Below are positions 14,409 to 23,703 of a stretch of DNA of 34,653 nt, in pieces. The stretch covers positions 1 to 34,653 of the IMG/VR virus record IMGVR_UViG_3300038701_001883. One strand, 5' to 3'. How positions within the stretch are numbered: position 1 is the stretch's first letter; each line of letters starts with the position of its first letter. A program made the position numbers and the translations under genes. This DNA comes from a virus. The notes under the pieces are model-generated. The model ran no database searches and was not told the DNA's origin. It saw only the letters and a list, made by a program, of their open reading frames with translations.

Positions 14409-14461
14409 ACGTCTACGTTTTCCCGATACCAGTAAAACGATAAAAAAAGTAATAAAAAAAC

Positions 14462-14489
14462 TGGACAAAAGAAATAAAATAAATAGAAT
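14462..14489 (+). promoter_or_regulatory. Promoter P2 of the early region
   Basis: TGGACA (14462-14467) and TAGAAT (14484-14489), spacer 16, follow an A-rich stretch resembling an UP element. The block AAAGTAATAAAAAAACTGGACA is almost identical at P3 (21273). P2 follows a terminator and precedes the recombination and early genes, so it is likely an early promoter read by the host sigma70 RNA polymerase. Confidence 0.75.
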
Positions 14490-14507
14490 AGGATACGTAA
14501 ATAAGAA

Positions 14508-14563
14508 ACGGCAAAAAATAATATACAAATACCGGGACTTCTTAAATACAAACAACTTTTAGC
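14508..14563 (+). repeat. Conserved leader of P2 (copy 1)
   Basis: Three blocks recur in order after P3: ACGGCAAA (14508 and 21318), ACTTCTTAAATACAAA (14537 and 21335) and AACTTTTAGC (14554 and 21356). The sequence between them differs, so the blocks appear selected. They lie in the 5' leader of the transcript. A repressor site, a processing site or a translation signal could explain them. Confidence 0.6.
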
Positions 14564-17624: not shown

Positions 17625-17642
17625 ACTAAATCTACAAAAAAA

Positions 17643-17726
17643 ATTTGCTGGGGAGCGATTTTTCTATATACTATTGGCACAAATAGTAGGTAAAAGCTCC
17701 CCAGCAGATCACCTACTATTTTTTTT
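17643..17726 (+). promoter_or_regulatory. Pseudoknot or attenuator with terminator before the replication initiator
   Basis: Segment A (17643-17656, core GCTGGGGAGC) pairs over 14 positions with A' (17696-17709, core GCTCCCCAGC). B TACTATT (17669-17675) pairs with B' AATAGTA (17682-17688) inside that stem. But B' extended (17682-17691, AATAGTAGGT) also pairs perfectly with C ACCTACTATT (17711-17720), which leads into a run of T to 17726. So B' can form the inner hairpin or a terminator. A-A' and B'-C together would be an H-type pseudoknot. The initiator ATG follows at 17738. Confidence 0.75.
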
Positions 17727-17737
17727 ATCCAAAATTT

Positions 17738-21029: not shown

Positions 21030-21257
21030 ATGTTTGGACAAATATATAAATTTACCGAAGAACATACGGAAGGATATATAACCTTTAGTAAAGGTGCTAG
21101 GGTAATTTTGGTACATAGAGACTCTAAATACGAACACCAGTTTATTTGTGCCTGGACAAGAGGTATAATTAAATTTCCTAATAACATTTTTAATAAACTT
21201 GAATTAACGGCAGATCATAGCAGATATTTTAAGCATACGTTAGAAAAGTTTAAATAA
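21030..21257 (+). CDS. Hypothetical small protein
   Basis: 75 residues, beta-rich start (FGQIYKFTEEHTEGYITFSK) and basic throughout. No family is recognised. Last gene of the P2 unit, immediately before promoter P3. Confidence 0.6.
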   Translation: MFGQIYKFTEEHTEGYITFSKGARVILVHRDSKYEHQFICAWTRGIIKFPNNIFNKLELTADHSRYFKHTLEKFK

Positions 21258-21272
21258 AAGTAATAAAAAAAC

Positions 21273-21300
21273 TGGACAAAGATAAATAAAAGAATATAAT
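21273..21300 (+). promoter_or_regulatory. Promoter P3
   Basis: TGGACA (21273-21278) and a perfect TATAAT (21295-21300) are 16 bases apart. The upstream AAAAGTAATAAAAAAAC is the same as at P2. It drives the 68-residue protein, the HNH protein, the structured RNA region and the SMC-like ATPase operon. Confidence 0.8.
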
Positions 21301-21317
21301 ACCCTTGTCTTTAAGAT

Positions 21318-21365
21318 ACGGCAAAGCGTTCGTTACTTCTTAAATACAAATATTTAACTTTTAGC
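21318..21365 (+). repeat. Conserved leader of P3 (copy 2)
   Basis: Second copy of the ordered blocks ACGGCAAA (21318-21325), ACTTCTTAAATACAAA (21335-21350) and AACTTTTAGC (21356-21365). The last block also appears before the ATG at 22444 without the others. Confidence 0.6.
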
Positions 21366-21374
21366 AAGGTAAAA

Positions 21375-21581
21375 ATGAAAACATTAAGAGAAAAACTTAC
21401 AGCTTCTAAAGAGAAGCTAGAACAACAAATAGAAAATAGGCACGATACCTACGCAAATAGATCGGAAAAATGGCAAGAGTCGGAAAAATGAGACGACTAT
21501 AGCGATAAAACTTATAACCTAGAAGAAACAGTAGACTATTTAGATCAAGCTATAGACAGCTTAGACGAATTTTTAGAATAA
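21375..21581 (+). CDS. Small coiled-coil protein
   Basis: 68 residues, helical and charged (EKLTASKEKLEQQIENRHDT). The segment RSEKWQESEK[G]DDY, with UGA at 21489, fits a pattern I know from small phage proteins having Gly at this point. First gene after P3. Function unknown; likely a small early helical protein. Confidence 0.65.
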
Positions 21582-21597
21582 TTTTTTAATATTATTT

Positions 21598-22110
21598 ATG
21601 GAACGTTGTAAAAAATGTTTTATGTTTAAAATTACTCCGTCTAGTACTTGTGCTTGTAATGCCAAGAAATTCGACGAAGCAAAATTAAGCAAAAAAACTA
21701 AGACAGAAAAAAAGCCGAAAGCAATAAAACAGGTTTCGGATAAAAAGAAAGAGGCTATAAAAAACGGGAAAAGTGAAGGACCATTTTTTAAGCAGATCTT
21801 TAAGAAAAAAGTAAAGTGTAAAGAAAATTTCTGTATTATTTGTAGGCAAGAGCTTATAGCAGGTACAGAAGACGTAGAAGGAAACGTAACGCCGGCTTGC
21901 TTCCCCCATATTTTACCAAAGGGAACATATCCGGAGCTAAGATTATTAGAGGGAAATTTACAGTTTTTAGTTTGTGGTATTGAACACCACGACAAATTCG
22001 ATCAAATCATAAACGAACTTAAAGCCGATATAGGGTTAGAAGCTCTTAAAAAAATGATTATCGACGGGAAAAAAATAGATCTAAGCAAATACTTAGATTA
22101 TGAAATATAA
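21598..22110 (+). CDS. HNH / NinG-like nuclease
   Basis: 170 residues. An N-terminal C-x-x-C (residues 4-7) and a second C-x-C (18-20) could bind zinc; a Lys-rich linker follows. The C-terminal part ENFCIICRQEL, then CFPHILPKGTYPELR and LQFLVCGIEHHDKFD, has the Cys pair, His-rich core and Asn/His-type end of HNH nucleases in the NinG/Rap group, which cut branched recombination intermediates. With VRR-NUC nearby the phage has two candidate resolvases. Confidence 0.72.
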   Translation: MERCKKCFMFKITPSSTCACNAKKFDEAKLSKKTKTEKKPKAIKQVSDKKKEAIKNGKSEGPFFKQIFKKKVKCKENFCIICRQELIAGTEDVEGNVTPACFPHILPKGTYPELRLLEGNLQFLVCGIEHHDKFDQIINELKADIGLEALKKMIIDGKKIDLSKYLDYEI

Positions 22111-22113
22111 AAA

Positions 22114-22186
22114 ATCGAGGCTACCAAGGACCTAGTAAGGAGGCTTTAGAAAGTTTAGCTAACCCTCGATCCTACTTCTAAGTAGG
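22114..22186 (+). ncRNA. Structured RNA, elements 1 and 2
   Basis: ATCGAGG (22114-22120) pairs perfectly with CCTCGAT (22164-22170), enclosing 43 bases with only weak inner pairing. CCTACT/AGTAGG follow as a tight hairpin (22171-22186). The 7-bp closing stem looks like a tRNA acceptor, but the 57-base length and missing T-arm exclude a tRNA. CCTAGTAAG at 22131 recurs at 22247, each time followed by GAGG or TGGAGG. Confidence 0.5.
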
Positions 22187-22242
22187 TAGTAGTATATTAT
22201 CGGTATAGGTTTCTCCTTTACCCTAGCCGTAATATACTACTA
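22187..22242 (+). ncRNA. Structured RNA, element 3 (long hairpin)
   Basis: TAGTAGTATATTA (22187-22199) pairs perfectly with TAATATACTACTA (22230-22242). CGG/CCG and TAGG/CCTA extend the stem with small bulges to about 20 pairs around a pyrimidine-rich loop. No T run follows, so it is not a terminator. Its A/T-rich dyad could also act as a DNA site. Confidence 0.65.
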
Positions 22243-22262
22243 CTTGCCTAGTAAGTGGAGGA

Positions 22263-22305
22263 TCTACGATAAACATTTTATAAATGAATAGGAACACTTC
22301 GTAGA
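22263..22305 (+). ncRNA. Structured RNA, element 4
   Basis: TCTACGA (22263-22269) pairs with TCGTAGA (22299-22305) and encloses a second small hairpin, CATT/AATG (22273-22285). It lies between the long hairpin and the branched structure. No frame of note crosses it. Confidence 0.45.
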
Positions 22306-22312
22306 AAATCTA

Positions 22313-22410
22313 TTAAAAGGTAAGCCCGGAGGCGTGAAAAATACTAGTTGTAGAGCTACTACCCTAATACCATATAGGGACTAGCTCGTGCCTCCCGGTT
22401 TACTTTTTAA
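22313..22410 (+). ncRNA. Structured RNA, element 5 (three-way junction)
   Basis: An outer stem of about 23 pairs is built from TTAAAAGGTAAG with the bases after 22399, then CCGG/CCGG and GGCGTG/CGTGCC, with single-base bulges. Inside, CTAGT/ACTAG closes a junction carrying two hairpins, GTAG(AGCTA)CTAC and CCTA(ATACCATA)TAGG. This is far too regular for chance. It ends 33 bases before the ATG of the SMC-like ATPase, so it is either its leader or a separate RNA. I recognise no RNA family. Confidence 0.7.
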
Positions 22411-22443
22411 GTAAAATATTTTAAACTTTAACTTTTAGCTACA

Positions 22444-23703
22444 ATGAAAGTAAAAAATATTAAGATTACAGACCTTAGAAATATCGAGATTTTCGAAGGA
22501 GATCTAGGGGACTGGAACGTAATAGACGGGGAAAACGGAAGCGGGAAAAGTACAGTAATTGACGCTATTTTTTGAGCGATCAGAGGAAAAACGTATTTTA
22601 ATAGCGATCCTTTTAGACTCGTAAAGCACGATAAAGAAAAGGCTATTATAAATTTAGTCCTGGAAGGAGAAAATAGAGAGATCATTATTAATAGAATATT
22701 TACCCAACCGACAGACTGAAAAGCGGAGGGTTACGATACTCTAAGGATAGTAGATACTTCGGGAGCAAATCTAGGACAAAAGGAATTGAATAAATTTTTT
22801 AGTAGTTTTACGATAGATCCTTTACAAATTGCGAGACAAAAACCTAAAGATCAAATCGAAACTATTAAGGAAATTGCCGGAATAGATACCAGTAAAATAG
22901 AGGCAGAAGCGTTAGAGATCTATAATAAAAGAACCGACGAAAATAGAGAGCTTACCAGGTTAAAAGGTGTAGTTTCGGAATATGCAGGGGTAGAGAAAGT
23001 GGAAGAAGTAAGCGTAACAGAACTTATAGCCGAAAGGGATAGAAAACAACACGAAAACGCAGAAATAGAAAGATACGAAAATAAAAAAGGTATGATTAAC
23101 GGCGGAATAAAAGACGCAGAGGATCAATTAGAGGAAGCTAAACAACTTATAGCAACTTTAGAGCAGGATATTAAAGATTATAACGATCAAATAAAAGAAT
23201 GCGACGAATACCTAGAAAAACACAAAGAACACGATTTAGAAGAAATTACAGCTAATATAAACAAATCCGAAGAAACTAACGAAAATGCAAGAAAATACAA
23301 AGAAAAAGAAGAAAATATAGGAAAATTACAAAAACAACAGGAAGTACACGACGCTTTAGATACGAAATACAAGGAAACTTTAGCGAAAAGAGAGAAGCTT
23401 ATAGCGGATAGCGATATACCAAATTACATAAGTTTCGATAAAAATGCAGGAGTTTTAGTAAATAATATACCATTTACACAGTTAAATACAGCAGAGCAAA
23501 TAAAAATTAGCATACAGTTAGGTAGTATACTAACTCCGGAGCTAAAAGTATTGCATATCAAAGACGGAAGCTTATTAGATCAAAAAACAATGGAGGAAGT
23601 ACAAAAAATAGTAAAAGAACACGATTACCAAATACTTATAGAAAGAGTAGGGGAAAGCGACCAAGGTACTATTACTATGAGAGAAGGGGTAAAAATTAAA
23701 TAA
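22444..23703 (+). CDS. SMC/Rad50-like AAA ATPase
   Basis: 419 residues, UGA-Gly at 22573 and 22717. Walker A is GENGSGKST (29-37). A coiled coil fills about 170-330. The C-terminal part has FTQLNTAEQIKISI, resembling the ABC signature helix, and LKVLHIKDGSLLD in place of Walker B, followed by YQILIERV. This is the form seen in a family of short phage ATPases of the SMC/RecF type. It probably acts with nucleases or the annealing protein on DNA ends. The structured RNA cluster lies directly upstream. Confidence 0.82.

Follow-up and report, generated by a model that had tools for sequence, protein, structure and literature searches.

Predicted RNA hairpins between an HNH-like gene and an ATPase gene of a code-25 phage

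Intercistronic hairpins are a well-known kind of phage RNA element. In phage early operons such as that of T7, they are processed by RNase III, and at gene boundaries intrinsic (rho-independent) terminators combine a GC-rich stem with a T-rich stretch after it. The put RNA of phage HK022 is described as hairpins acting in cis beside elements that resemble terminators (PMC9378689). Here we describe hairpins between two phage genes that are new to the libraries searched. They are like the T7-type sites in that a long double-stranded hairpin lies between genes of what would be one transcription unit, but the apical sequence is conserved in a related phage and cleavage here is putative. A GC-rich stem and a T-rich stretch at the gene boundary recall intrinsic terminators, and the hairpin of the relative scores weakly as one. 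However, the last hairpin in our phage has a tail broken by AC and a stem far longer than those of the phage's other terminators, and the apical part shared with the relative is conserved in sequence. The likeness to put is in outline only; the array lies between genes rather than in a leader and has no Rfam match.

The window, meaning the whole stretch of DNA analyzed, is the 34,653-base virus record IMGVR_UViG_3300038701_001883. Its two ends share a 125-bp direct repeat, and it looks like a complete genome of a code-25 phage. We aligned its proteins to those of three related contigs (L003, L009, and L010), which overlap and may count some positions twice, and found TGA opposite GGN at 11 of 15 informative positions. 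The other four faced phenylalanine (2), glutamate (1), and serine (1), and at two more positions TGA faced TGA. These alignments indicate that TGA encodes glycine in this phage; tryptophan was ruled out, as none of the 15 positions faced TGG. Code 25 is used by Gracilibacteria and Absconditabacteria, according to PMC10746230, and we infer from this shared code that the host lies within these groups. A search for code-25 host genomes via RNA polymerase identified none, and ARAGORN detected no tRNA or tmRNA genes in the window. Shine-Dalgarno-like GGAG or GAGG was absent within 20 nt upstream of all 51 genes examined in the window. Several gene starts come after a stretch such as TTTAACTTTTATA.

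The intergenic gap at 22111-22443 (333 nt) can form up to four hairpins, H1 to H4, and every assigned gene around it is on the plus strand (Table 1). No open reading frame of at least 40 amino acids was found in 22111-22427 under code 25 (the longest open run is 38 codons), so this region is non-coding. The fold of the entire gap has a z-score of -6.2. In an energy scan of 1383 segments of 100 nt across the genome, the segment covering H2 (22176-22275) was the lowest and that covering H4 (22301-22400) the fourth-lowest; when the same scan was ranked by z-score, other places came above both. The upstream gene has no Pfam or PHROG match, and its product appears HNH-like from C-x2-C and H/N/HH residues recognized by eye. 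The downstream product matches phrog_1499 (E 4.1e-56) and reaches 25.4 bits against Pfam SMC_N, below the cut-off of 40. Relatives of this ATPase occur in 95 records of the Phages collection, all at less than 60% identity, with annotations such as ASCE ATPase and DNA repair protein.

Table 1 Features in and around the gap, in window coordinates
Feature	Position	Strand	Description
Promoter-like TGGACA-16-TATAAT	21273-21300	+	Matches the consensus at 11 of 12 positions; potential start of operon transcription across the array
HNH-like gene	21598-22110	+	Code 25, 170 aa, P0002; upstream of the array
H1	22114-22170	+	Seven-pair closing stem AUCGAGG/CCUCGAU
H2	22174-22256	+	Long stem with two bulged bases (U and A); CGGU-A-UAGG/CCUA-GCCG as apical helix (22201-22229); 12-nt pyrimidine-rich loop
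H3	22255-22313	+	Weaker hairpin UCUACGA/UCGUAGA
H4	22313-22410	+	98-nt long hairpin with bulges; UUAAAAGGUAAGCC/GGUUUACUUUUUAA at the base, GGAGGC/GCCUCC above it, and an apical arm
Leader motif ACTTYTTAARTAMAAA ... AACTTTTAGC	22402-22439	+	Before the ATPase start; overlaps the 3' strand of H4
RecF/SMC-like ATPase gene	22444-23703	+	Code 25, 419 aa, P0001; downstream of the array

H4 was originally predicted to be a three-way-junction RNA on a long bulged stem. Its boundaries, its end 33 bases upstream of the ATG at 22444, and the long bulged stem were confirmed, the stem comprising 13 + 7 pairs with base-pair probabilities above 0.94 except for the innermost pair. The fold has an energy of -41.3 kcal/mol (z -5.81), and none of 200 dinucleotide shuffles was as stable. 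On this folding model, H4 is a real and very stable RNA hairpin. The short complementary segments proposed to build the junction are present in the sequence, and one helix, CCCUA/UAGGG, forms (0.94-1.0). However, CUAGU/ACUAG and GUAG/CUAC each have a probability of about 0.001 and are not used by the predicted ensemble, because of competition from GAGCUA/UAGCUC (0.92-0.99), a pairing of the minimum-energy fold that excludes CUAGU/ACUAG. Forcing the junction gives -37.6 kcal/mol, a penalty of 3.7 kcal/mol. The original prediction recognized no known motif in the element. Rfam gave zero matches in the window at gathering score; below that score, 22100-22460 yielded only two miRNA families and STnc410, three chance-like matches.

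One relative, IMGVR_UViG_3300019763_000125 (L002), carries the same gene pair, with the ATPase 72% and the HNH protein 69% identical. Its gap is 124 nt long and folds into one rod (-40.6 kcal/mol, z -4.52). The comparison of gap structure thus involves two sequences, the window and this relative. The apical half of the relative's hairpin is the counterpart of H2, not of H4, whereas its base and T-rich tail are the counterpart of the H4 base. H2 (z -6.75), which the original prediction overlooked, is the conserved part. It shares 19 pairs with the relative, 14 of them identical, two with one-sided and three with two-sided changes, and none broken. When equally many changes were placed at random, a naive control, all 19 pairs were kept in 1 of 20,000 trials. 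In the apical flanks, CGGTATAGGTT and ACCCTAGCCG, the two phages are identical; the loop differs, and the lower stem has changed with its pairing kept. A kissing or pseudoknot interaction of the H2 loop (UCCUU) with an upstream AAGGA was rejected because, in the inspected fold of the relative, this partner lies at the bottom of a stem longer than 25 pairs, out of reach of the loop.

The base of H4 has kept 13 of 14 pairs in the relative, losing the outermost; one C-G pair has become U-A and one A-U pair G-U. In both phages AAAAGGUA pairs with UACUUUUU, and 12 of 13 positions agree between the 5' arms. Alignment of H4 to the relative's gap scored 39 (p 0.001 from 1000 shuffles, as one of ten pairwise comparisons). 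The middle and apex of H4 have no counterpart anywhere in that gap, so the one relative with an element before the same gene lacks the junction, which is the outcome that the original prediction had named as its refutation, here in 1 of 1 relative. An RNA-level element precedes the ATPase gene in both phages with the gene pair, as had been suggested, but the junction part does not. By position alone, the ATPase gene would be the target of the H4 element. At 22-420, just before the promoter-like stretch of its HNH operon, the relative also has an open reading frame with NUMOD4/HNH homing endonuclease-like residues recognized by eye; none was seen at the matching place in the window.

We scanned IMG/VR with the ATPase, the HNH protein, the terminase, and two hairpin patterns, and only the contig of this relative carried the gene pair with the RNA. 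Three HNH relatives (L005-L007) were 36-42% identical, with no ATPase-like gene seen beside them and the gap DNA unmatched in their records. A relaxed hairpin pattern retrieved 14 records, including the relative's own contig, and the other 13 were dropped as chance or unrelated because they lack the long flanking stem. Among GTDB genomes, the hairpin pattern had no matches and the ATPase one distant match; two genome searches each hit a single genome, 1 of 379 in one and 1 of 353 in the other, and both times it was that distant match. Searches with the gap DNA returned only four Lak-A1 records (E 0.3) from the Phages collection and no plasmid match. Our Rfam and literature searches yielded no regulatory RNA already described from phages of code-25 bacteria, nor any paper that brings together Gracilibacteria, phage, and structured RNA, and the text of PMC10746230 does not contain the words "noncoding", "hairpin", "intergenic", or "riboswitch".

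H1 is no more stable than chance (z +0.90), as 168 of 200 shuffles fold as well or better. H3 (z -3.77) has a weak local match to the tail of the relative's hairpin (p 0.022, one of ten comparisons) and no counterpart in the alignment. We rejected a tandem array of like hairpins: pairwise comparison gave p 0.088 for H1 and H2 and 0.92 for both H2-H4 and H1-H4, and because of these values duplication within the window is not shown by sequence. On both flanks of H2 (22131-22143 and 22247-22261) we observed CCTAGTAAG followed by GGAGG, with nine identical bases (p 0.088 versus shuffles). The AAGGAGG beside H2 is unusual for a genome without Shine-Dalgarno sites.

We scored the hairpins as terminators with d (threshold >0; coefficients after d'Aubenton-Carafa). 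H4 has a d of -8.4 and a broken tail, TTTACTTTTT, and on this score it is not a canonical terminator. The relative's hairpin has a marginal d of +5.7. Seven hairpins from other gaps in the window, picked for a visible hairpin and T-run among 12 folded stretches, reached best d values of +8.9 to +31.8 and have runs of T6-T9. The leader motif that overlaps H4 recurs at 14537-14563 and 21335-21365, before two other window genes, and loosely twice in the relative, including before its HNH gene. This link is only suggestive because the 16-mer by itself does not exceed chance (at least three copies in 34 of 100 shuffles). The overlap means that part of the H4 tail may have been kept for another reason.

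Six promoter-like sites were found in the region, compared with 4.7 expected. A polycistronic message would suit the locus because a promoter-like site lies at 21273 and none was found on the plus strand within 22111-22443. We tentatively interpret the gap as an intercistronic array of hairpins that would act in cis to lower ATPase expression or set it apart, a reading to which we give a little less than an even chance. Transcription from the promoter-like site at 21273 would first cross a small open reading frame at 21375 and the HNH-like gene, then the array, and finally the ATPase gene. Folding as the RNA emerges, the hairpins would reduce ATPase expression or uncouple it from that of the upstream genes. 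They would most likely act as a leaky terminator-like barrier and may also mark a place of RNA processing. In the predicted folds, the relative carries the conserved apical half and the base with its T-rich tail on a single hairpin, and the window has them on H2 and H4, respectively. As each of these resembles a different half of that hairpin, one hairpin may have been duplicated or split. The shared strand of the assigned genes, the stability of the gap, the unbroken pairs of H2, the kept base of H4 with its significant alignment to the relative's gap, and the positive d of the relative's hairpin all support the array. On the other side, H4 scores poorly, with a tail unlike the T-runs of other gaps and overlapping the recurring leader motif, the comparison spans two sequences, and the strongly kept apex of H2 exceeds the needs of a plain terminator or cleavage site.

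That apex also bears on the readings that compete with the array. The stem of H2, together with H4 or the relative's hairpin, could be cut by an RNase III-type enzyme to leave separate message ends protected by hairpins. The near-perfect, covarying stem of more than 20 pairs, its place between two genes, and the absence of a T-tract from H2 in the window fit such a double-strand processing site, which we regard as possible if somewhat unlikely; it would need no identity at the apex, yet the two phages agree at all 21 bases flanking it. This identity, above a stem that covaries and around a loop that differs, would suit a sequence-specific regulatory RNA. The invariant H2 apex, including its U and A bulges, would then be bound by RNA polymerase or by a protein of phage or host and would modulate termination at the base downstream, by a logic like that of put. 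In the relative this head is placed immediately on top of the terminator-like base, which favors the reading. Still, the comparison spans two sequences, and identity at 21 bases, though improbable against a background of about 70%, could arise by chance; we consider this mechanism unlikely. A bolder version would make the hairpin of H2 and the relative a new phage RNA regulator. Binding of RNA polymerase, or else of a phage protein, to its invariant bulged motif CGGU-A-UAGG ... CCUA-GCCG would control read-through into the downstream ATPase operon of code-25 phages; the sensing head and the base that resembles a terminator would share one hairpin in the relative and occupy two in the window. 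We think this decidedly doubtful. Should the apical motif prove to be a binding site, it would offer a first clue to the way in which these code-25 phages order expression without Shine-Dalgarno sequences; as it stands, the locus is a modest intercistronic hairpin array whose conserved part, H2, adjoins the part first noticed, H4.

The perfect inverted repeats would look alike if they acted in DNA, as a cruciform, a protein site, or a replication origin. The stems of the relative contain G-U pairs, however, which would be mismatches in a DNA cruciform, and GC skew is positive all along the window with no sign change at the gap, making a DNA-level feature very improbable. The original reading of H4 as a self-standing junction RNA of riboswitch or packaging-RNA type fares no better. 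The junction can be drawn, and a ligand or tertiary stabilization could suffice to pay its energy penalty, but two of its three helices are almost absent from the ensemble, the relative has a single rod without the junction part, and no Rfam family matches, so we hold this to be the least probable explanation.

Two further features were seen in the window. A 49-nt repeat (14442-14490 and 21253-21301, 82% identical) contains a TGGACA promoter-like stretch, and after each copy comes a leader, similar in the two places, that includes ACTTCTTAAATACAAA and AACTTTTAGC. At 17625-17737, a GCTGGGGAGC/GCTCCCCAGC stem overlaps a terminator-like hairpin, ACCTACTA plus T8, and the two pairings cross in an attenuator-like manner.
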